11,091 nucleotides of DNA from assembly GCA_021812745.1 (NCBI GenBank), contig JAKAMS010000053.1, positions 1 through 11,091 on the forward strand. Reading direction: 5' to 3'. This DNA comes from Bacteroidota bacterium. GTDB lineage: Bacteria; Bacteroidota; Ignavibacteria; Ignavibacteriales; Melioribacteraceae. Position numbers and translations under genes: made by a program. This document shows, in pieces, positions 1 to 11,091 of this stretch. The stretch's first letter is position 1; each line of letters begins with the position of its first letter. The notes under the pieces were generated by a model that did no database searches, was not told the origin of the DNA, and saw only the letters and a list, made by a program, of their open reading frames with translations.

Positions 1-130
1 TTTAGTTTTCCAGAGTAAGTTTGCTGTTCACAGTTGATTTGTAATACAAAGCTGATTTTAAAACAAAAAGGTAGTTGCCAAAAGCGTCATTGTTGTTATT
101 GGCGGCGCTTTAGTTGCAACGCCGTTAGCC
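1..130 (+). repeat. attC site, right part only (cut by window edge)
   Basis: The stretch ends in a GGCGGCGCTTTAG-type L' arm (about 104-118), a short spacer and the R' core GTTAGCC (124-130). Recombination would cut after G124. The right arm aligns with the right arms of the attC sites ending at 1453 and 3674: all have a GC-rich arm, then CAACGCC or CAACGTC, then GTTA. The left arm (R''/L'') lies outside the window, so folding cannot be verified here. The AT-rich stretch 1-100 resembles the long central part of the other two sites. Confidence 0.75.
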
Positions 131-151
131 AAACACTTAAAGGATTCAAAT

Positions 152-1261
152 ATGGATGATAAAAAATGTATCGAAATTCTGAATTTAGGAATTACTGAAA
201 AAAGAAATGGCAATTACAAAAGAGCACTGCAATATTATAATGAGGCAAAACAATATAATAAGTTCAACTCAAATATATATTACAATACGGGGAAAGTTCT
301 ATGTGGAATAGGTGAGTTTGAAGATGCATTGAAAAATCTATTAACCTATGCTCACTTAACAATCTTAAACAATTCATTTATGAATAATCCTTTGAACTTT
401 ATAACAATAAAGGACACTATTGAAAGAATAAGAAAATCTAATCTTAATCTTCCATTGAACTATTCATTCCCAGAGAATTGGTTTGAAAAATTGACGAGTG
501 ATGAAAAATATTTAATGTTATTGGCAGATATAAATTTAACTTTTTACACTGGATTCTCATTCTTAGTTGATAAAAAAAATTTCTTAAACTTTTACCAAAT
601 AAATGAAAAGCAAATTATAGATCTTCAAAATGGCCTACTTGGTAAATCTAGTAATGTGTTTCTTAAAAACCCAGATTATGAAATAATATTTATCTGCTTC
701 GGCCTAGTATTTTTATTAGAAAACTTAAAATTAGATTTAAAATCATTGGAAGATATAGTAGCATTTTATTTTGGCGATAAATTCTCCAATAAAAATATTG
801 TAAGTCAGAACAAACTAAACTTTGATGACTTTTTAGATCGAAATCCTCCAGATATAGAGCTTGATAATTTTTTCGGACAATTTCAAAAGAACATTAAAAA
901 CGATTTATCTATAAAGTCTATCTATATGGGATATAATTTAATTGAAAATATGATGTTTGATAATTTAGATTATTTCAATCCTTTATTTGGTTGCTTGAAT
1001 ATTGGTCATACTTCGACAATGGGTTTTGAAACAGATATGATTAAAGATAATCTCAAAAAAAATAAAAATATTTATCTTTGTTACTTTGCACTACCAATTG
1101 ATGATGATGACTACCTAATTGAAAATGAAGAAATGTTAGACTGGGAGTTTGAAGAATATCTTAAGGACAAATTGCAAACAGTATTTGTTTCCATTGGTGC
1201 AGTAGCTAAAAATGAACATAAAAGATGTAGGACTTTTAAATTTTTATATGATAAACAATAA
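152..1261 (+). CDS. Cassette 1: TPR-containing protein of unknown function
   Basis: A 369-residue protein I do not recognise beyond its N-terminus. Residues 5-38 and 40-72 fit two tetratricopeptide repeats: conserved positions are L12, G13, A25, Y29 and A32 in the first, G47, A59 and A67 in the second. TPR helices usually bind other proteins. The remaining 300 residues show no motif I can name and are rich in Asn, Lys, Asp and Phe. There is no signal peptide or clear membrane segment, so a cytoplasmic location is likely. The ATG at 152 is preceded by AAAGGA with suitable spacing and sits 27 bases after the core-site cut, as expected for a cassette gene. The stop lies 2-3 bases from the start of the downstream attC. 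Function is unknown; a stress, regulatory or defence role would be a guess. Confidence 0.85.
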   Translation: MDDKKCIEILNLGITEKRNGNYKRALQYYNEAKQYNKFNSNIYYNTGKVLCGIGEFEDALKNLLTYAHLTILNNSFMNNPLNFITIKDTIERIRKSNLNLPLNYSFPENWFEKLTSDEKYLMLLADINLTFYTGFSFLVDKKNFLNFYQINEKQIIDLQNGLLGKSSNVFLKNPDYEIIFICFGLVFLLENLKLDLKSLEDIVAFYFGDKFSNKNIVSQNKLNFDDFLDRNPPDIELDNFFGQFQKNIKNDLSIKSIYMGYNLIENMMFDNLDYFNPLFGCLNIGHTSTMGFETDMIKDNLKKNKNIYLCYFALPIDDDDYLIENEEMLDWEFEEYLKDKLQTVFVSIGAVAKNEHKRCRTFKFLYDKQ

Positions 1262-1266
1262 GTTTT

Positions 1267-1453
1267 GGCTAACAAGTGCCTCAAGCCGAAAGCGTTTTCG
1301 CATTTGGCATTTGAGTAGTCTAAAAGTTTGTAGTTCCGTTTCGGCTTTGTTGTTCAGCATAGTTTGTAAATGAAAATTTGTCCTAATTAAAAAGTTATTT
1401 AAAAATGTAAAATTGTTGCGTGGGGCTTCGGCTTAGGCACAACGCCGTTATAA
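1267..1453 (+). repeat. attC site of cassette 1
   Basis: R'' is GGCTAAC (1267-1273). L'' is GTGCCTCAAGCCGAA (1276-1290), L' is TTCGGCTTAGGCAC (1427-1440) and R' is GTTATAA (1447-1453). L'' and L' pair over 14 bp with one extra base, C1282, left unpaired in L''. An extrahelical base of this kind marks the strand that IntI uses. The left arm resembles the TAACAA-CGCCTCAAG start of Vibrio attC repeats. The span is 187 bp, with a long AT-rich central segment (about 1291-1426), longer than most described attC sites. Confidence 0.9.
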
Positions 1454-1477
1454 GCTTAGTTTCTTGAGGAATTAATA

Positions 1478-3454
1478 GTGAACGAAAGAAAACCTATGCA
1501 CGAATTTGACTTAAACAGAGTAGAATTTTATTCAAAGGAAGATATGGCATCTGGACATCATCTTCAAAAAGGCGAGCATATTTTGCGAGCTGACACAAAG
1601 ACAAGCTATACTGACATCAACGAAGTATTAGAACTTTACAATCTAAAAAAATACATTGACAATGAATTGTATTTAAAAAGTTGGACGCAAGACGACATCG
1701 CAAATTTCAAACAAAAAGCAGTAGAATATGACAAAGTAATTGGAAAATTTATGGCGACCATTGACGACAACAATGTTCTGCCTTTTTATGAAAATACTTT
1801 ACAAAATTACATCCATTCGTTTTGGGAGCTAGTCAATAATCAAAGTATGTTCAAACGAATTTCTAAACTCAATTTTAGTAATATTCTTACGAATGAACCA
1901 CACATAATACACGAAATATTAACTCATAAAGGTTTAGTCGGTTACTATGACACAGAAATCAAAAACTTCCTAATGACATATTCACAATCTGCTGAAATAT
2001 TACTTTCAGTTTATGAGGTTAAAGACGACTTTGGGAAAAGTCAAAAATTCCTTCCCAAGAGCCTAACTGTTGAAGATAAAGAAACTATTCTTTCAAATTA
2101 TTTAGATTCCAGTGATGTGAACTATAATTACATTGGACTAATTCAAAACGCAAGAAATAGGAATGATTTTAAAGTTTCCGACAAAACTCGCTTAAAAGCA
2201 AAACGTTTGCATAAAAGCGAAACTGAAAAATTTTTCGCTGAGAAAAGCGGTATGAAGTATGGTGTTTCGATTAGCTTTCCTGAAAATGTCAGTAAAGTAA
2301 AAGACGGGATTATTGACGACAATTTTGTAGTAAATTACTCTTACAGTTTGGATTTCATAAAACAAAACAGTGACCCTTATTCGTTATTTCAGAATTTTAA
2401 AATTTTATTCGAATATCTTGACCTACAAAACAGAATCAATCTCGTAAGCAAGAAAAATAATATGAGCGTATTTGAAAGAATTATGGGCGTCCATTCTCAA
2501 AATGAATACAGAGGAGGAACTGAATTTAATTTATTGGAGATGACCTCGCATATTCAGATAGTCGGCTATAATAAAGTGCTTAGCAACTTAGGCATCTCAT
2601 TAGAAAATATTTTACATCGAGTTTTCACTTCATCATTTCAAGAAAAGTATGAGTTTGCAAACAATGCACGCTTTTCAATTCCATCAGCTTCATCATACTT
2701 TGAAAAAGTAAGATTGCTAGCCCCTGAGTTTGAGTCCGTATTAAAACAGTTCAAACTCTTTGTTGAGGATGGAAGCATTGATTTTGAGCTTTTACAAATT
2801 TCGTCTAATCCAACGGCTATAAAAGATATTCCCAGCTTAAATAAAAGTAAGTATATATACTTCAACGAACACAACAAAGAAATGGTCGGTTGCACAAATT
2901 TATTCTTTTCTGACCAAACACTTCTTGCTTATGTTGAACCATTTAAAGAAAAACACTATCACAATTTTTTCGAGTTACTTGCAAATGAGCAAGTAAAACT
3001 TAGTAGTTATGAGGAACATCAAAAACCTCAATTAAATTATCTAATTGACAAAGGATTTATAAACATTGACAGCAACGATTTTATTCAAATCACAAATCCA
3101 GCGAGAGTAATAATTCTGAAAGATTTATACCTCAATGAAGTTGCTTCTTTCTATCGTTATTCGTTTGAATTACGACAAGAAGCTCAACAGATGGAAGCTG
3201 AAAAAATTGTTTTCTTTGATAGCTCATTGTTTTCCAAACCTGAACAAGCGTATTTTAATTATTTCCTAAACAAAAGTGAATTTACTAATGGTGTAGATTT
3301 AAGAAATAGTTACTTACACGGAACTCAAGCAACACCAGATGAAATACAAAAACACGAGTATGCCTATTTTACTTACTTAAAACTGTTAATCTTGACATTT
3401 TTAAAAATAGAAGACGATTTAATTATTTATAAAGCAGTAAAAAACAGAATATGA
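1478..3454 (+). CDS. Cassette 2: large protein with C-terminal HEPN-type RNase motif
   Basis: A 658-residue protein, not assigned to a named family. Near the C-terminus, R609-N610-S-Y-L-H614-G matches the R(N)x3-4H catalytic motif of HEPN ribonucleases. Helix-forming hydrophobic sequence follows (about 625-650), as in the last helix of HEPN domains. HEPN RNases occur in toxin-antitoxin, abortive-infection and other anti-phage systems, so a defence role is a reasonable inference but not shown. Residues 525-565 could be a small winged-helix-like segment (weak). There is no signal peptide or membrane segment. The GTG start at 1478 is chosen because TTGAGGA (1464-1470) lies 7 bases upstream; an ATG at 1496 is the alternative. 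The gene fills a 2.2 kb cassette, large for an integron, and no separate antitoxin gene sits beside it. Confidence 0.85.
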   Translation: MNERKPMHEFDLNRVEFYSKEDMASGHHLQKGEHILRADTKTSYTDINEVLELYNLKKYIDNELYLKSWTQDDIANFKQKAVEYDKVIGKFMATIDDNNVLPFYENTLQNYIHSFWELVNNQSMFKRISKLNFSNILTNEPHIIHEILTHKGLVGYYDTEIKNFLMTYSQSAEILLSVYEVKDDFGKSQKFLPKSLTVEDKETILSNYLDSSDVNYNYIGLIQNARNRNDFKVSDKTRLKAKRLHKSETEKFFAEKSGMKYGVSISFPENVSKVKDGIIDDNFVVNYSYSLDFIKQNSDPYSLFQNFKILFEYLDLQNRINLVSKKNNMSVFERIMGVHSQNEYRGGTEFNLLEMTSHIQIVGYNKVLSNLGISLENILHRVFTSSFQEKYEFANNARFSIPSASSYFEKVRLLAPEFESVLKQFKLFVEDGSIDFELLQISSNPTAIKDIPSLNKSKYIYFNEHNKEMVGCTNLFFSDQTLLAYVEPFKEKHYHNFFELLANEQVKLSSYEEHQKPQLNYLIDKGFINIDSNDFIQITNPARVIILKDLYLNEVASFYRYSFELRQEAQQMEAEKIVFFDSSLFSKPEQAYFNYFLNKSEFTNGVDLRNSYLHGTQATPDEIQKHEYAYFTYLKLLILTFLKIEDDLIIYKAVKNRI

Positions 3455-3486
3455 ATGGGCTGTGAATCAATATGATAGTAGTTCGC

Positions 3487-3674
3487 TTATAACAAGCCGC
3501 TCAACACGGCCAGCGTTTTTCAGTGCGGCAATTGTGTATTTATAAAGTTTGGTTTGCAAAGTTTAGTTTCTCTTTTAGGTAGTTCGTTCTAAGAAATATT
3601 TTTATAAATAAAAAATTGTTCGGTTAATTGGCACTGTTCTTCTGGGGCGCCGCTTATCGGCAACGTCGTTATAT
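3487..3674 (+). repeat. attC site of cassette 2
   Basis: R'' is TTATAAC (3487-3493, within GCTTATAAC 3485-3493). L'' is GCCGCTCAACACGGC (3496-3510), L' is GCCGCTTATCGGC (3649-3661) and R' is GTTATAT (3668-3674). The outer GCCG/CGGC and inner CGGC/GCCG blocks pair around an unequal internal loop (7 against 5 bases), giving extrahelical bases on the L'' side. The span is 188 bp, almost the same as the preceding site. Its central part is AT-rich and shares short blocks (AGCGTTTT, AAAGTTTG) with that site. Confidence 0.88.
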
Positions 3675-3701
3675 GCTTAATCTTTCTATAAAACTTATTT
3701 T

Positions 3702-4358
3702 ATGAATAAGATTATGAAAATATTGAAGAAGATTAAATTCTTGGAAGAAAGCGACACTCAAACTAAAGTACAAATTGTGTTAGCTGTTCTAACTATTATT
3801 ACTCTTCTTTCTTATGTTGTTGTGAGCAGTCTCCAAATTCATCAAACTAATAAGGCTTTAGATAAAGCAGATTCTTCAAATTCATATACACGTCGAAGTA
3901 TTAACCTTTCAGAACAGCAGAATAAATTAGATATGAGAGCTTACCTTGCATATGTAGGAATAGACACTATAGCTTTTAATGTCGGTAAACCATTCAGAGT
4001 AGATCTTTTGTTAAAGAACACTGGTAAAACTCTTGCTAACAAAATAAGAGGTACATACTTACAAAAATATCGGCAAGGTCCTCCAAACCAATCTGATAGT
4101 GACACGCTTAAAAAGCATCTCAATGGTGATAATTTAGCTTGGCCAAATACTGATATGGTTACAACATTAATTTTCAAATTAGTTCTAACAAAAACTGATT
4201 CGATCAAAATCGTTAATGGTTTAGAAGAGCTATATATCATGGGTCTGTTCGAATATGATGATGTCTTCGGTGTAACTCATTACACAAAATATTGTCTCTT
4301 CTATGATCCGATAGTAAGAACTTTTAATACTTTTGAAAAATATAATGATGCAAATTAA
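3702..4358 (+). CDS. Cassette 3: single-pass membrane protein of unknown function
   Basis: A 218-residue protein. After a lysine-rich start, residues 23-43 form one hydrophobic transmembrane helix. Residues 44-78 are polar and probably helical. The C-terminal domain (about 79-215) carries RAYLAY, then a beta-rich segment with LKNTGKTLANKI (104-115), and near the end GLFEYDDVFG (181-190). This layout (TM helix, short linker, RAY-x-NTGKTPA-like domain, Y-x-D-x-FG ending) recurs in many uncharacterised bacterial membrane proteins. I recall the pattern but know no assigned function. By the positive-inside rule the N-terminus is probably cytoplasmic and the domain periplasmic. The ATG at 3702 has no clear Shine-Dalgarno; a second ATG at 3714 is possible. 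It starts 33 bases after the core cut and ends just before a truncated attC. Confidence 0.82.
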   Translation: MNKIMKILKKIKFLEESDTQTKVQIVLAVLTIITLLSYVVVSSLQIHQTNKALDKADSSNSYTRRSINLSEQQNKLDMRAYLAYVGIDTIAFNVGKPFRVDLLLKNTGKTLANKIRGTYLQKYRQGPPNQSDSDTLKKHLNGDNLAWPNTDMVTTLIFKLVLTKTDSIKIVNGLEELYIMGLFEYDDVFGVTHYTKYCLFYDPIVRTFNTFEKYNDAN

Positions 4359-4371
4359 CATAAACGAAGTC

Positions 4372-4400
4372 GCATATAACCAGCGTCTCAAGCGGAACGC
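4372..4400 (+). repeat. Truncated attC of cassette 3 (left half only)
   Basis: GCATATAAC (4372-4380) is the exact reverse complement of the cassette 3 start GTTATATGC (3668-3676), so it is the R'' site. An L''-like arm follows, AGCGTCTCAAGCGGAACGC (4382-4400), with the same CTCAAG element as the site at 1276. I find no complementary L' arm or R' core between 4400 and 5065, although one would be expected about 160-190 bases further on. The site has lost its right half, so cassette 3 should not be excisable by the usual reaction. Confidence 0.8.
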
Positions 4401-4453
4401 TTCTATGAGTAGGTTCTAATTAAAATATGTTGCTACATAAAAAGGAGAATATT

Positions 4454-5035
4454 ATGAAGGCAATATTTCAATTAATAATCCTAATATTTTTGTCCACTAA
4501 CGTAATTTCTTATTCACAAAACGACCCATGTAACTGCATTCCGAAAAGAGGGAAAGCACCATACCGTCTTAATGCAAAAACTGAGAAGAATTACGAAAAT
4601 TATCATACAAAGAAAAAATCAATAACACCCGAAACAATGCGAACATGGGAAGAGAGATATGCTGATAGAACAAAACGGGATATTGATAAAAATGCGGAAC
4701 GGTTGAAAAAGACACCAGAGGATACAGTCTATACTTTGAATGGTTACATATATAAAATAATTAAAGAGATAGATTGCGATTATCATATTATCCTTGGTGG
4801 AGAAAATCCCAGTGATCAAAAAGCAGAAATAGAAGTAACGATTGAAAATTGCGACCTCCAGAAAAAGATAATGCAATACATGAGTAATCATAATTTACAT
4901 TTTAATAGAGAATTTGGTGAGCCAGTTAAATGTCAAGTAAAAGGATTAGGTTTTTACGACGGTCAGCATGGGGTTAAGAAACTTACTGGAACAGCATGGG
5001 AATTACATCCAGTAAAGAGTCTGAAATTTGAGTGA
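4454..5035 (+). CDS. Secreted protein with GFYD-x-QHG and ELHPV motifs, function unknown
   Basis: A 193-residue protein with a Sec signal peptide: MK, a hydrophobic core at about residues 3-14, and likely cleavage near residue 21 (SYS|QND). The mature protein is periplasmic or extracellular. It has cysteines at 26, 28, 108, 133 and 160, which may form disulfides. The C-terminal part carries DYH (109-111), GFYDGQHG (166-173) and ELHPV (183-187). From memory, a similar DYHLV / GFFD-x-HG / IELHPV pattern recurs in many bacterial secreted hypothetical proteins of about 150-200 residues with no established function. Residues 50-90 are charged and probably helical. The ATG at 4454 is chosen over an in-frame ATG at 4427 because AAAGGAG (4441-4447) lies 6 bases upstream and the signal peptide starts cleanly there. 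No attC follows, so it is not a recognisable cassette. Confidence 0.82.
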   Translation: MKAIFQLIILIFLSTNVISYSQNDPCNCIPKRGKAPYRLNAKTEKNYENYHTKKKSITPETMRTWEERYADRTKRDIDKNAERLKKTPEDTVYTLNGYIYKIIKEIDCDYHIILGGENPSDQKAEIEVTIENCDLQKKIMQYMSNHNLHFNREFGEPVKCQVKGLGFYDGQHGVKKLTGTAWELHPVKSLKFE

Positions 5036-5064
5036 AATAGAGAAACTCAATAATTCGTCTAATG

Positions 5065-5199
5065 CTATTGGATCTTTAGAAGCTCTTCAGACTTCCTAAG
5101 ATTCTCTGAACTAGCGTGAGAATAGATTTCTGTTACTGAAATATTACTATGTTCTAACAACCTTTAGATAAAACCAATGTTAATTCCTTTCTGAAACAA
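5065..5199 (-). pseudogene. C-terminal remnant of a second tyrosine recombinase
   Basis: On the minus strand, 44 codons read LFQKG-INIGFI-stop-RLLEHSNIS-VTEIYSHAS-SENLRKSEEL-LKIQ-stop. This matches the last part of tyrosine recombinases (G-x-D-I-x-x-I-Q-x-L-L-G-H-x-x-x-x-T-x-x-Y-x-H). The internal TAA (5164-5166 on the + strand) sits exactly where the family has Gln, as one CAA-to-TAA change would give. The family Gly before His is Glu. The N-terminal core-binding domain and most of the catalytic domain are missing. It starts 10 bases past the stop codon of the intact recombinase. Over 27 aligned residues the two share about 11, so it is a remnant of a different recombinase rather than a recent copy. 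It lacks an IntI-like ending. Confidence 0.8.
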
Positions 5200-5209
5200 T
5201 CAATTAGAA

Positions 5210-6028
5210 TCAAAGGAGTGAAATTGCATCGTCACGCTGCTTATTAAAAAAGTGAGTATAGATTTGTGTAGTCTTAATATCCTCATGCCCTAGAAGTTCT
5301 TGAACAATTTGAAGATGAACACCTTTTTGCACTAACCAACTTGCAAAGGTATGTCGCAAACAATGAAAGTGTAACGTCTGGTTGAGTGTAGTGAGTTTCA
5401 GAAACTTCTTGAATCTAATCTGCACTCGTCTCTCTTTCCACTTCTTTACATCACCATATCTATCTGAATGATAAGAGAAAATGAATCCTTGATATGCTAC
5501 TCTTGATTGAACAATCTCTCTTACTACATCATTCATCTTGATAGATCTGAATTCTACAGTTTTCTCAGAACTGAATATCAGACGATCACCCACAACTTGT
5601 GAAGTAACAAGATTAGTTAGTTCGTTAAGTCTCATGCCAGTGTATATTGCTACTGTGAATAAGTCTCTAGTATCTTTATCCGTTACCTTGGAAATAAACT
5701 CTTCAAAATCTTTCTTGGAGAATATCAAAGGTGGATTCTTCCTTAATTTAATTTGTCGCAATGTTGAAGTTGGATTTGTTCTGATGTATTTTTGAGAGTG
5801 AGCATACTTAAACATAGCTCTCAGGTTGATGGTATGTTTACGAGCGGCAGATTTCTTCTGTAAATTAATGAACGATTCAACATCACTTTTGTCAATAGTC
5901 GAGATAACTTTATTATGAATATATCTCCCGAATATTTTTATAGTGGAACGGTAATCCTTCCTTGTAGCATCAGTGTGGACGTGCTTTTTCCAGCCCAAGA
6001 ATTCATCAGAAAAATTCAACCAGTTCAT
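5210..6028 (-). CDS. Tyrosine recombinase / island integrase
   Basis: A 272-residue site-specific recombinase. Residues 1-95 form the SAM-like core-binding domain. The catalytic domain (about 100-272) has the full set of active-site residues: R133 (YTGMRLNEL), K156 in the beta-hairpin, H222-x-x-R225 (HCLRH), H248 (LLGHED) and nucleophile Y257 (TQIYTHF). It cuts DNA through a 3'-phosphotyrosine link and exchanges strands at att sites. It lacks the extra helix segment between the catalytic boxes that defines integron IntI, so it is unlikely to act on the attC sites here. The start at 6028 is chosen over an upstream in-frame ATG at 6070 because AAGGAG lies 9 bases before it. Its 5' end faces a tRNA 3' fragment 70 bases away, as is usual for an integrase of a tRNA-targeted island. 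Confidence 0.92.
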
Positions 6029-6096
6029 TATGTTCGACTCCTTGAAAACGTGCCACCAATTTTGGAGCAAGGGCTAAGTCTATGTAATTACAGTAG

Positions 6097-6126
6097 GGGT
6101 CGCGGGTTCAAATCCCGCCGTTCCGA
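6097..6126 (+). other. Island attachment site: 3' end fragment of a tRNA gene, probably tRNA-Pro
   Basis: A perfect T arm (stem GCGGG 6102-6106, loop TTCAAAT 6107-6113, stem CCCGC 6114-6118) is followed by the 3' acceptor strand CGTTCCG (6119-6125) and discriminator A6126. No matching 5' acceptor strand (CGGAACG), D arm or anticodon arm lies in the preceding 80 bases, so the tRNA is incomplete. C1:G72 pairing with A73 suggests tRNA-Pro; an initiator tRNA would not pair 1-72. The fragment marks the chromosomal side (attR) left when an element inserted in the tRNA 3' end. The other copy should form the end of the intact tRNA left of the window. Confidence 0.85.
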
Positions 6127-6137
6127 CACACGTATTC

Positions 6138-6162
6138 AGGCACAATTTTATGTGCCTTTTTT
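6138..6162 (+). terminator. Rho-independent terminator of the disrupted tRNA gene
   Basis: The stem AGGCACA (6138-6144) pairs with TGTGCCT (6151-6157) over 7 bp around a 6-base loop, followed by an uninterrupted run of T (6158-6162). It lies 12 bases after the tRNA 3' end, so it is most simply the original tRNA terminator. It is only 22 bases before the purF start codon. Confidence 0.85.
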
Positions 6163-6167
6163 ATAAT
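6162..6167 (+). promoter_or_regulatory. Possible -10 element for purF
   Basis: TATAAT overlaps the end of the terminator T-run, 17 bases before the purF ATG. No convincing -35 element (TTGACA or the Bacteroidota TTTG) is at the right spacing. In an AT-rich genome the match can arise by chance. It is listed because purF has almost no other room for a promoter. Confidence 0.2.
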
Positions 6168-6184
6168 TGTTGAAGAATATTTTT

Positions 6185-7657
6185 ATGAATGATAAACCAA
6201 GATGTAATTGCGGTGTATTCGGAATTTTTGACGCTAAGGATGCAGCATTAACAACTTACTATGGACTGTTATCTTTGCAGCATCGAGGACAAGAAGCTGC
6301 AGGAATAGTTTCCTTGTCATATAATCAAAAAAGTAAACCAATTTTTAATGTTCATAGAAATCTTGGATTAGTCTCGGAAATATTTAATGATGATAAAATA
6401 TTTGAGAATGTTCTTATCGGTTCTAGCGCTATAGGTCATAACCGTTACTCTACAACCGGTTCTTCCGACTCATCTAAAAATATTCAGCCGTTCACAGTGA
6501 ATTACCGGATGGGTAATTTGGCTATTGCACACAACGGTAATTTGACAAATGCAAAAGAATTGCGTGAAGAGTTAGTTAATGACGGGGCAATTTTTCAAAC
6601 AACGAGTGATACTGAAGTAATTTTACATCTGATTGCACGAAGCAAACTTGATAATCAAATAGATCAAATAAAAGAAGCTCTCCAAAAAGTTGAAGGCGCA
6701 TACAGTATTGTTATCTTGACAAATGACAAATTGATTGGTGCAAGAGATCCGCATGGATTCCGTCCTTTATGTGTTGGAAAGATTAATGGCTCATTAATAG
6801 TTACCTCCGAAACTTGCGCTCTTGATATCAATTCTGCTCAATATGTGCGCGATGTAGAACCCGGCGAAATGGTGATAATTGATAACGAAGCAAACAGTTC
6901 CGGCATTGTAAAATCTATAAACATTTATCAAAAAACTTTTCCGAAAAAACATTGTGTCTTTGAGTATATCTATTTTTCGAGACCTGATAGCAGAGTCTTC
7001 GGCACAAATGTAGATAAGATGAGAAGAAAATTAGGAAAAGTACTTGCCGAAAAACATCCGGCAGTTGATATAGACGGCGATAAAATTATTGTCATAAGTG
7101 TTCCGGATAGTTCTAACACTGCGGCGATTGGTTACCAGACTCAATTAGCCAAACAAGGCGTATCTTCAAAACTTGAAATTGGATTGATCCGCAGTCACTA
7201 TATTGGCCGAACTTTTATTTTGCCGGGTCAACGCGCAAGGGAAATCGGAGTAAAAATTAAATTCAATACTGTGAAAGGTGTTCTTGAGAACAAAACAGTT
7301 GTTTTGATTGATGACTCAATTGTAAGAGGAACAACTTCAAAACAGTTGGTTAAATTACTGCGCGAAGCTAATCCTAAATCTATTCATTTGAGAATTTCCT
7401 CACCGCCGATTATTAGTCCATGTTATTATGGAATGGATTTTCCGTCCAAAGAGGAATTGATTGCTAATAAATTTAATGTTGATATCGAAGCAATACGCAA
7501 ATATCTTGATGTGGATACTTTAGAATATCTTACAATAGATGAAATGTTAGAAGCAATGGTAGACCATAAGCCGGATAACTTTTGCACTGCTTGTTTCTCC
7601 GGCATTTATCCGGTAGCAATTAACAAACAGATTACAAAAAATGTTTACGAAGACTAA
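6185..7657 (+). CDS. purF: Amidophosphoribosyltransferase, Fe-S type
   Basis: Catalyses the first committed step of purine synthesis: PRPP and glutamine give 5-phosphoribosylamine. The 490-residue protein has an N-terminal Ntn glutaminase domain starting at C9 (C-GVFGIF), the nucleophile exposed after removal of an 8-residue propeptide. SLQHRGQEAAGI and GHNRYST are typical of the family. The C-terminal phosphoribosyltransferase domain has the PRPP loop D376-D377-SIVRGTT. C257, C413, C467 and C470 correspond to the four [4Fe-4S] ligands of the Bacillus subtilis type enzyme, whose cluster makes it oxygen-sensitive. The E. coli type lacks the propeptide and cluster. The ATG at 6185 is chosen over a TTG at 6167 because the latter lies in the terminator tail and would add residues not usual in the family. 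It is the first gene of an operon; pgsA follows after 8 bases. Confidence 0.96.
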   Translation: MNDKPRCNCGVFGIFDAKDAALTTYYGLLSLQHRGQEAAGIVSLSYNQKSKPIFNVHRNLGLVSEIFNDDKIFENVLIGSSAIGHNRYSTTGSSDSSKNIQPFTVNYRMGNLAIAHNGNLTNAKELREELVNDGAIFQTTSDTEVILHLIARSKLDNQIDQIKEALQKVEGAYSIVILTNDKLIGARDPHGFRPLCVGKINGSLIVTSETCALDINSAQYVRDVEPGEMVIIDNEANSSGIVKSINIYQKTFPKKHCVFEYIYFSRPDSRVFGTNVDKMRRKLGKVLAEKHPAVDIDGDKIIVISVPDSSNTAAIGYQTQLAKQGVSSKLEIGLIRSHYIGRTFILPGQRAREIGVKIKFNTVKGVLENKTVVLIDDSIVRGTTSKQLVKLLREANPKSIHLRISSPPIISPCYYGMDFPSKEELIANKFNVDIEAIRKYLDVDTLEYLTIDEMLEAMVDHKPDNFCTACFSGIYPVAINKQITKNVYED

Positions 7658-7665
7658 TTTGAAAC

Positions 7666-8244
7666 ATGAATAAAATTCTAAAAGAAATTTATCTGTTGCC
7701 AAATCTGATAAGTTTATTCCGGCTGTTATTATTCATCCCATTTATTTTTCTATTTCAGTTGATGAAAGCCGATGATCATTATAGATACTACATTCTTGCA
7801 CTAATTTTAATCGCATTTATTTCTGACCTTCTTGATGGATATACTGCGCGTAAGAGAAACCAAATATCAGAACTTGGGAAAATCATTGATCCTTTAGCAG
7901 ATAAAGTTCTTGTGGCTTTGATTGTTATCAATCTCTTTTTTATGGAAATGATTCCAACGTTCTTTTTCTGGTTAATCATTGTGAGAGATATTTTTATTTT
8001 TCTTGGCGGATTATATATAAAGCAAAAGATTGGTAAGGTGCTTCCATCGAACCTTCTTGGAAAAGCTACAGTTTTTTCAATTGGAATCTTTATCATAATC
8101 ACATTACTAAAATTGAATGAATTGAGTGCTATTTATCAAGGAGTAATGATTATATCTATAACATTATGTTTTGCTTCAGTTATTGGTTATTCATTACGGG
8201 CAAAAGAAATATTAAACTGGAAAAAGAATGAAACTATTCTCTAA
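7666..8244 (+). CDS. pgsA: CDP-alcohol phosphatidyltransferase, likely phosphatidylglycerophosphate synthase
   Basis: An integral membrane enzyme of 192 residues with about five to six hydrophobic helices. The family motif D-x2-DG-x2-AR-x8-G-x3-D-x3-D is complete: D54, D57, G58, A61, R62, G71, D75 and D79. It transfers a phosphatidyl group from CDP-diacylglycerol to an alcohol. Size and the N-terminal LPNLISLFRLLLF-like segment favour glycerol-3-phosphate as acceptor, the first step to phosphatidylglycerol. Substrate cannot be fixed from sequence alone; a related acceptor such as a polyol phosphate is the alternative. It starts 8 bases after purF and overlaps ftsY by 17 bases, so it is probably translated from the same mRNA. 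Confidence 0.9.
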   Translation: MNKILKEIYLLPNLISLFRLLLFIPFIFLFQLMKADDHYRYYILALILIAFISDLLDGYTARKRNQISELGKIIDPLADKVLVALIVINLFFMEMIPTFFFWLIIVRDIFIFLGGLYIKQKIGKVLPSNLLGKATVFSIGIFIIITLLKLNELSAIYQGVMIISITLCFASVIGYSLRAKEILNWKKNETIL

Positions 8245-9154
8245 TCTGAAAAAGTTAAAAGAAGGATTAACAAGAACTCGGGAAAATCTAACCACTAAGA
8301 TTTCAGAAGTTATCACTAGAAAAGTTAAAATAGATGAAAACACTCTAGATGATCTGGAAGAAATATTAATCAATAGTGATTTAGGTAGTAAGTTGACGGA
8401 ACAATTAATCAGCAATGCTAAATCCGCATTATTTAAAGAGCATGATAGGACACTCGATAAAATAAAAGAGATTTTAAAGAAAGAACTTGTCAAACTGATC
8501 CAGCCGCAAGATAAGAAAACCTCTGCAGATTTACTTCCAGACCAAAATAAAGTAAAAATAATTTTAATTATTGGTATTAATGGTTCAGGGAAATCTACAA
8601 CGATTGGAAAACTGGCTTATAAATATAAAACTGAAGGGAAAAGAGTAATTATCGGTTCAGCAGATACTTTCAGAGCTGCGGCAAATGAACAGTTAAAAAG
8701 TTGGGCTACAAAAGCAGGTGTTGATTTAATTGAAGATATATCGAAAGATCCTTCGGCAGTTGTTTATGAAACGGTCAAATCTGCTTTGTTAAACAATTAT
8801 GAAATTGTTTTGATTGATACAGCCGGAAGACTCCACAATAATAAAAATTTGATGTTAGAGCTGAACAAAATAAACGGAGTTATTTCTAATCTGATCCCCG
8901 GAGCACCTCACGAATGTCTTTTAGTAGTTGATGGCAATTCAGGACAAAACGCAATAATGCAGTTTGAGGAGTTTAACAAGTATTCTAATCTAACAGGTGT
9001 TATCATTACTAAACTAGATGGTACTGCCAAAGGCGGTTCTGTTTTGCAGATAGCATCGGAAAAGAATATTCCAATCCGTTACATCGGTTTAGGTGAGGGA
9101 ATGGAAGATCTTCAAGAATTTAACGCAGAAGAATTTGTTGATGCAATGTTTTGA
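8228..9154 (+). CDS. ftsY: Signal recognition particle receptor FtsY
   Basis: An SRP-family GTPase of 308 residues that docks Ffh-ribosome complexes at the inner membrane. The N-terminal helical N domain (about 1-100) begins with a basic amphipathic helix (MKLFSNLKKLKEGL) that can bind membrane. There is no long acidic A domain, as in many non-enterobacterial FtsY proteins. The NG GTPase motifs are present: G1 GINGSGKST (116-124), DTFRAAA (146-152), G3 DTAGR (197-201), DGNSGQNA (235-242), G4 TKLD (261-264), and the closing GLGEGMEDL (287-295). Ffh is excluded because no C-terminal M domain is present. It overlaps the end of pgsA by 17 bases and is the last gene of the operon. Confidence 0.96.
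   Translation: MKLFSNLKKLKEGLTRTRENLTTKISEVITRKVKIDENTLDDLEEILINSDLGSKLTEQLISNAKSALFKEHDRTLDKIKEILKKELVKLIQPQDKKTSADLLPDQNKVKIILIIGINGSGKSTTIGKLAYKYKTEGKRVIIGSADTFRAAANEQLKSWATKAGVDLIEDISKDPSAVVYETVKSALLNNYEIVLIDTAGRLHNNKNLMLELNKINGVISNLIPGAPHECLLVVDGNSGQNAIMQFEEFNKYSNLTGVIITKLDGTAKGGSVLQIASEKNIPIRYIGLGEGMEDLQEFNAEEFVDAMF

Positions 9155-11091
<1,937 letters not shown>

Follow-up and report, generated by a model that had tools for sequence, protein, structure and literature searches.

A Melioribacteraceae-type integron cassette array at the probable end of a genomic island in tRNA-Pro(ggg)

Introduction

Integron cassettes are described both from sedentary chromosomal integrons and from clusters of attC sites lacking integron integrases (CALINs). 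In the reverse integrons of Treponema, the integrase gene intI reads towards attI and the array (PMC3607928); the publication on IntegronFinder 2.0 (PMC9024848) notes that complete integrons were already known from Ignavibacteriae, and cassettes encoding anti-phage defence were reported by Darracq, Getz and Kieffer, all in 2025 (via PMC12444791). Here a stretch of 11,091 nt from a member of the Melioribacteraceae (Ignavibacteria; assembly GCA_021812745.1, contig JAKAMS010000053.1, positions 1–11,091) was analysed; 'the window' denotes this whole stretch. An earlier reading of the sequence, referred to as the original prediction, had proposed an integron cassette array within it. The array is confirmed as genuine and its attC family as of the Melioribacteraceae type, and positions 1–6094 are very probably the right end of an integrative genomic island in tRNA-Pro(ggg) upstream of purF, carrying a cassette array of the family's own attC type. 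This reading is built on a breakpoint, an attC family, cassette boundaries, relatedness to an attC that has an intact intI next to it and a neighbouring tyrosine recombinase, all of which were directly observed.

Like CALINs and sedentary chromosomal integrons, the window holds single-gene cassettes between attC sites of R''/L''/L'/R' architecture, with no intI in view. Points of difference are the conserved loop and the length of its attC sites, about 190 nt, and the location of the array at a probable tRNA island end; the absence of intI applies to the window only, the array running off its left edge. The family intI of the relatives reads towards attI and the array, as in the reverse integrons of Treponema; the phylum is a different one, and this orientation comes from the relatives and not from the window. 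As in tRNA-integrated islands with a tyrosine integrase, the breakpoint is in the 3' half of a tRNA gene and an integrase gene adjoins it; unlike in the usual islands of this kind the cargo includes a cassette array, and the far end is outside the window. One cassette carries a candidate defence gene, as in the published defence-cassette integrons, but in another lineage and from a family, PDC-S56, that is itself a candidate. Since CALINs, sedentary integrons, reverse integrons and defence cassettes are already published, the array is a fresh example of a known gene-capture system and not a new system. It documents cassette arrays and an attC family for Melioribacteraceae-type bacteria, a lineage not included among the 11 named taxon models in the available part of PMC8352920. 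No paper pairing Melioribacter with integron was found in a literature search that left subscription journals mostly outside.

attC sites and cassette boundaries

The closest relatives were located through purF, and a BLAST comparison with the second attC of the window (attC 2) served to pick attC-like sites in 10 of their genomes. Eleven of the relatives' sites, aligned without any window sequence, gave a profile hidden Markov model (HMM) and a covariance model, R1, whose E-values are rough. The array comprises the following features.

1–130, + strand: 3' part of an attC cut by the window edge, from a cassette lying to the left of it (R1 E 1.2e-10; model positions 1–129 of 192)
125–1447, + strand: cassette 1, starting TTAGCCAAAC and ending with its own attC (start and R'' complementary over 10 bases)
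1263–1453, + strand: attC 1 (R1 E 6.2e-18), with R and L stems in the folded bottom strand
1448–3668, + strand: cassette 2 (9 bases of complementarity between its start and its own R'')
3483–3674, + strand: attC 2 (R1 E 1e-36); 81 % identity over 186 bp to an attC in genome G002 (stretch L090, 6863–7046)
3669–4420 (right limit approximate), + strand: cassette 3, truncated within its attC (start and own R'' complementary over 9 bases; L'/R' half not found)
4372–4415 (right limit approximate), + strand: last attC, 5' half (R'' and L''), 3' half missing; R'' GCATATAAC and CAGCGTCTCAAGCGG, by eye resembling L119 2388–2574

R1 matched both of the sites that had been predicted and, in addition, the edge site, the next-best match in the window having an E-value of 0.83. 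The HMM found the same three sites (3486–3673, 5.6e-48; 1267–1451, 2.3e-12; 6–129, 5e-12) and nothing further in the window at E 10; its background over 80 purF loci (1.3 Mb) was one match at E 1e-3 or better, in L054. A scan of the window at Rfam gathering thresholds gave no matches, nor did a scan of IMG/VR with an attC 21-mer.

Each cassette start is the reverse complement of its own R'', exactly as the original prediction had described: GTTAGCCAAAC (124–134) against GTTTTGGCTAAC (1262–1273) over 10 exact bases, GTTATAAGC (from 1447) against GCTTATAAC (3485–3493) over 9 bases and GTTATATGC (from 3668) against GCATATAAC (4372–4380) over 9 bases. In the six mismatched start/end combinations of the window the complementarity extended over only 4–6 bases. 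Taken alone, this complementarity is statistically weak, four GTT/AAC pairs of at least 9 bases occurring at 600–2200 bp spacing in the window compared with a mean of 2.75 in 20 dinucleotide shuffles. It carries weight because five of the six boundary ends coincide with attC model matches; the sixth, the R'' at 4372, belongs to a site too short for the model. A test that included cassettes of relatives was noisy: of 13 cassettes, seven (two from the window) had at least 7 complementary bases, compared with 6 of 156 swaps, and some low values may reflect wrong anchors. The claim of a real cassette array with three unrelated genes also stood.

The window opens inside an attC cut by its left edge, so that the array continues to the left of it; the right end of the array is a truncated attC. 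Three cassette starts and R'' ends are thus accompanied by only two whole attC sites, the last site being without its 3' half.

Pairing of the L'' and L' arms, the other structural element of the original claim, was borne out in part: it held for attC 1, with its long stem, whilst attC 2 is imperfect and the last site has only its 5' half. In the folded bottom strand of attC 1 the R and L stems are continuous, one side bearing two single extrahelical bases and the opposite side a 4-nt bulge, and the L''/L' arms of this site outpair all 27 swapped partners. Compared with 100 shuffles, the fold of attC 1 had a z-score of −2.05 in a circular form (with its own R') and −0.25 in the linear form; for attC 2 the values were −2.88 (circular) and −1.71 (linear). 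In the minimum-energy fold of attC 2 the R stem is closed and the L arms are folded on themselves. Across 28 sites (26 from relatives and two from the window), own L''/L' arms outpaired permuted arms, only one of 20 000 permutations reaching the observed sum, which is evidence for arm pairing in this attC family. These were 28 of 33 sites, the five dropped, all from relatives, being without an AAC or GTT anchor. RNAalifold, applied to a linear attC alignment, predicted 10 pairs, none with change on both sides; as R' derives from the neighbouring cassette and arm subtypes exist, to which this null result was attributed, own and permuted arms were compared instead. A 3' half for the last attC was sought as a duplex partner in 4400–6094, where the best candidate (−10.9 kcal/mol) was within the range of swapped arms and inside the recombinase gene.

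In attC 2 (3483–3674) the L'' arm looks like one subtype and the L' arm like another, and the relatives' sites in L099, L100 and L114 likewise pair no better than swaps; together these give a hint of recombination between attC sites.

The probable island end at tRNA-Pro(ggg)

The right flank of the array contains the following features.

6095–6127, + strand: attR-like 3' part of tRNA-Pro(ggg), whole in relatives (onset of homology in L001–L008)
6185–7657, + strand: purF, first of the chromosomal genes outside the island (protein 98 % identical to that in L001)
5210–6070, − strand: tyrosine recombinase, probable island integrase (PF00589, 3.1e-26; PHROG integrase, 9.2e-53; XerC/XerD-like, below cut-offs)
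5077–5199, − strand: C-terminal remnant (41 aa) of a second tyrosine recombinase (best tblastn E 1.5e-11, 51 % identity)
4427–5035, + strand: ORF (open reading frame) lying between the array and the recombinase gene, 202 aa, without a family (no Pfam match)

Eight relatives (L001–L008) align with the window only from 6093–6095 on, at 92 % nucleotide identity in L001 and 87 % in L003. Base 6095 falls inside tRNA-Pro(ggg), which is whole directly upstream of purF in L001, L002 and L003; it is because the homology begins inside this gene that 1–6094 looks like a tRNA island end. ARAGORN found tRNA-Pro(ggg) in 57 of 80 purF loci, several of the rest being short contigs, and no tRNA in the window, where only the 3' part remains.

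The recombinase gene adjoins the tRNA-Pro fragment and reads away from it, and its product is likely to be the island integrase. It is not IntI: against TIGR02249 (integron integrase) it scored 71 bits with a cut-off of 265, and the best NCBIfam models were XerC/XerD, below their cut-offs. The original statement that the only recombinase in the window is not IntI thus applies to the only intact one; a second is present as the remnant at 5077–5199, and the position of this remnant directly behind the intact gene suggests nested insertions at the tRNA site. That prediction had also missed that the array adjoins an integrase beside a split tRNA-Pro(ggg), that is, a probable genomic island.

The database copy of the recombinase, P0001, has 272 aa, so that the true start may be 14 codons in. 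Its two best relatives after itself were 45 and 49 % identical, and among the 294 genomes of the class of the nearest relative there were four matches at E 1e-40, with 35–38 % identity. A scan of IMG/VR with an integrase pattern matched two stretches, neither of which was confirmed. The 202-aa ORF had no match at E 1e-5 in the 79 family genomes described below, in a search run without a positive control.

The gap between tRNA-Pro(ggg) and purF is 1.1–2 kb in L009, L013, L019, L025, L028, L040, L042, L046 and L075, compared with about 0.1 kb in the nearest kin; these nine wide gaps are possibly other insertions at the same tRNA.

Integron integrases and arrays in relatives

The 79 genomes of the nearest relative's family were surveyed with R1 (E up to 1e-4) and for IntI (E up to 1e-60). 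R1 matches to attC were present in 62 of the 79 and IntI in 33, of which 32 were over the curated cut-off; in the class, 53 of 294 genomes had an IntI over the cut-off. With these counts and the complete integrons already published (PMC9024848), the original remark that integrons are little described in this lineage does not hold. Thirty-two of the family genomes had attC without an IntI match, many of these assemblies being fragmented, and three IntI genomes had no R1 matches. Arrays without IntI may therefore be common. The clearest case is G198, with contigs of 1.69 and 0.85 Mb, 24 attC matches and no IntI match.

Genome G002 contains a complete integron consisting of intI, an attI-like site, a cassette and an attC. 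This attC, 0.9 kb beyond the intact intI, is the one with 81 % identity to attC 2; the first cassette begins 144 bases past the intI frame, and an 11-base match links its start to its own R''. Among the matches listed, nine IntI loci had an attC within 5 kb, and at all nine the array lies 3' of intI and in the same direction (G002:C158, G008:C111, G008:C89, in which intI is broken, G306:C87, G282:C4, G311:C92, G206:C61, G048:C8 and G152:C64; examined as stretches L090, L094, L097, L190, L214, L215 and L216, plus G306:C87 and G282:C4). An intI for the array of the window, if there is one, is accordingly expected to the left of the window. G210:C53, where a single attC lies about 7 kb from IntI on the 5' side and in the opposite direction, was left out of the nine. 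In G004:C8 (L096) the 2.4 kb that follow the 3' end of intI gave no HMM match to attC, and no attC of this family was found near IntI in G246:C3 (L213). The densest array seen was in L158 (G232:C1, 481000–500900), with 15 attC sites in 20 kb and no IntI in the stretch.

Alternative explanations

Several observations weigh against the reading of the window as a cassette array on a tRNA island. The relatives' attC sites were gathered by their likeness to attC 2, so that its E-value is favoured; as attC 2 alone was used in the collection, attC 1 and the edge site are fair tests. Part of the array may be inactive, given the truncation of the last attC and the imperfectly matched L arms of attC 2, for which 18 of 27 swaps pair as well. 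Neither intI nor attI is present in the window, from which the attI-like motif AAGTAATAGTT is also absent, the relevant side being outside it. The left end of the island and a whole copy of tRNA-Pro would lie outside the window as well. Finally, of 40 other attC regions of the family (L151–L190, several cut by contig ends) only one, L151, had a non-IntI tyrosine recombinase when searched with a profile of the homologues of the window integrase, so that the pairing of an array with an island integrase is not a recurring one in this sample. In L151 (G048:C19, 152000–171999) this recombinase gene is at 6945–7958, and the first of the four attC sites there is about 4 kb away.

The locus may instead be part of a complete integron, with intI and attI just left of the window, in which case the array would not be IntI-less. 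We take this to be a serious possibility, though we lean slightly against it: the array leaves the left edge inside an attC, and the nine IntI loci with the array 3' of intI and in the same direction point to that very side, whilst the 32 family genomes with attC but no IntI match, many of them fragmented, speak for the contrary. That no integron integrase is visible in the window, as had been predicted, is correct and also uninformative, because the array continues to the left and the relatives' intI lies on that side. Alternatively, the array could be a decaying remnant that is not mobilized any more, its intI and right end having been lost. CALINs have been proposed to be degraded integrons (PMC9024848), which favours this view, as do the missing 3' half of the last attC, the reduction of the second recombinase to 41 aa and the mismatched arms of attC 2. 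On the other hand, attC 1 is structurally intact, the three cassette genes have open frames (369, 658 and 218 aa), and decay at the edge is compatible with activity inside the array; decay is quite conceivable on this evidence without being the account that we prefer.

That the contig is a chimera, an array contig having been joined to a purF contig during assembly, is very unlikely. Arrays of attC can break assemblies, and of 10 intI contigs of known length five end no more than 500 bp from the 3' end of intI and one no more than 500 bp from its 5' end, but the junction here is exactly in a tRNA gene beside an integrase, as biology predicts. The integrase protein P0001 is recorded on five contigs, which by itself is no proof of the junction. 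It is scarcely credible that the sites are ordinary dispersed repeats and not recombination sites; they are alike over the whole 190 bp, loop included, as repeats would be, but own arms pair better than permuted arms and the single-gene units of the window have starts that match their own R''.

On the preferred reading, of an array on a tRNA island, the bottom strand of each whole attC would fold into a hairpin that is recombined by an integron integrase, which would make the cassettes excisable and insertable by an IntI acting in trans or encoded to the left of the window. The block as a whole would be moved between tRNA-Pro sites by the island integrase, and the cargo may benefit the host, the PDC-S56 gene being a probable anti-phage gene and perhaps a HEPN RNase. 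An array with a candidate anti-phage gene at a probable tRNA island end would be a possible route for the spread of cassettes between cells.

Cassette cargo

The three cassettes each carry one ORF.

152–1261, + strand: cassette 1 ORF, 369 aa, weak TPR near the N-terminus (Pfam TPR_2, 5.7e-06, 26.5 bits with a cut-off of 27)
1478–3454, + strand: cassette 2 ORF, 658 aa, candidate single-gene anti-phage family PDC-S56 (PADLOC PDC-S56, 5.1e-245, residues 7–655)
3702–4358, + strand: cassette 3 ORF, 218 aa, no family, hydrophobic N-terminal segment (by eye)

The protein of cassette 3 is a near-orphan, with one relative besides itself (E 0.001, 29 % identity). The PDC-S56 protein, by comparison, had 902 homologues at E 0.001, of which the best 120 were 74–96 % identical; the few named ones were mostly from Bacteroidota, with one from Campylobacterota. 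Six plasmid records matched, all at less than 60 % identity, and a search in phages found none. The relative in G221 (67 % identity) had no attC of this family in the surrounding 12 kb (L137). No mention of 'PDC-S56' was found in the literature, most subscription journals being outside the search.

Near its C-terminus the PDC-S56 protein possesses an RNSYLHG motif that was kept in eight of eight sequences; within R-N-S-Y-x-H, R609, N610, S611, Y612 and H614 were invariant in all 43 aligned sequences, the window's included. On account of this invariant motif, which resembles RX4-6H, the protein may be a HEPN RNase. A structure model had a mean pLDDT (predicted local distance difference test) of 72, falling below 50 at 599–616, where the motif lies. 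A fold search with this model gave no match in the PDB at E 0.001 and 214 at E up to 10, with no support for HEPN, and a Pfam search of the protein gave no match at E 0.001.

attI-like sites heading cassettes without intI

In eight IntI loci the motif CAGTATAAGTAATA followed by GTTA, or a variant of it, was present 122–146 nt beyond the IntI frame, usually after a hairpin (by eye). The motif also occurs at 24 examined sites without an intact IntI, seven of which came from loci fetched for their attC and the other 17 of which were hand-picked from pattern matches. Seventeen of the 24 are followed within 6 kb, on the same strand, by an attC of this family; in 11 of those with an attC, the start matched the R'' of the next attC over at least 9 bases. 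The hand-picked sites accounted for 10 with an attC and eight with an R'' match. The pattern has a background, 54 matches (up to one mismatch) being found in 23 of the 79 genomes, compared with 19 for a reversed control.

An IntI remnant was detected by HMM at two of the 24 sites, L209 (62 bits) and L213 (36 bits). A weak match in L197 (18 bits) was discarded as probably spurious, since it overlaps the motif, and in L140 and L159 a few codons resemble the end of intI by eye, for which tblastn gave no support.

These loci look like integrons that have lost intI and kept attI, or like stations served in trans. It would be a further step to suppose that one IntI serves many chromosomal IntI-less stations, each with its own copy of attI, and that arrays such as that in the window are stations on a tRNA island, the island integrase thereby moving cassettes between cells without intI; we think this improbable. 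Should the attI-headed loci of the relatives be confirmed, the feeding of several stations in trans by one IntI becomes testable. Cassettes headed by an attI-like site without an intact intI were seen in L140, L154, L159, L180 (8146 from the minus end), L199, L200, L206 and L208–L212, and in G198 and G008 they occupy several places within one genome.

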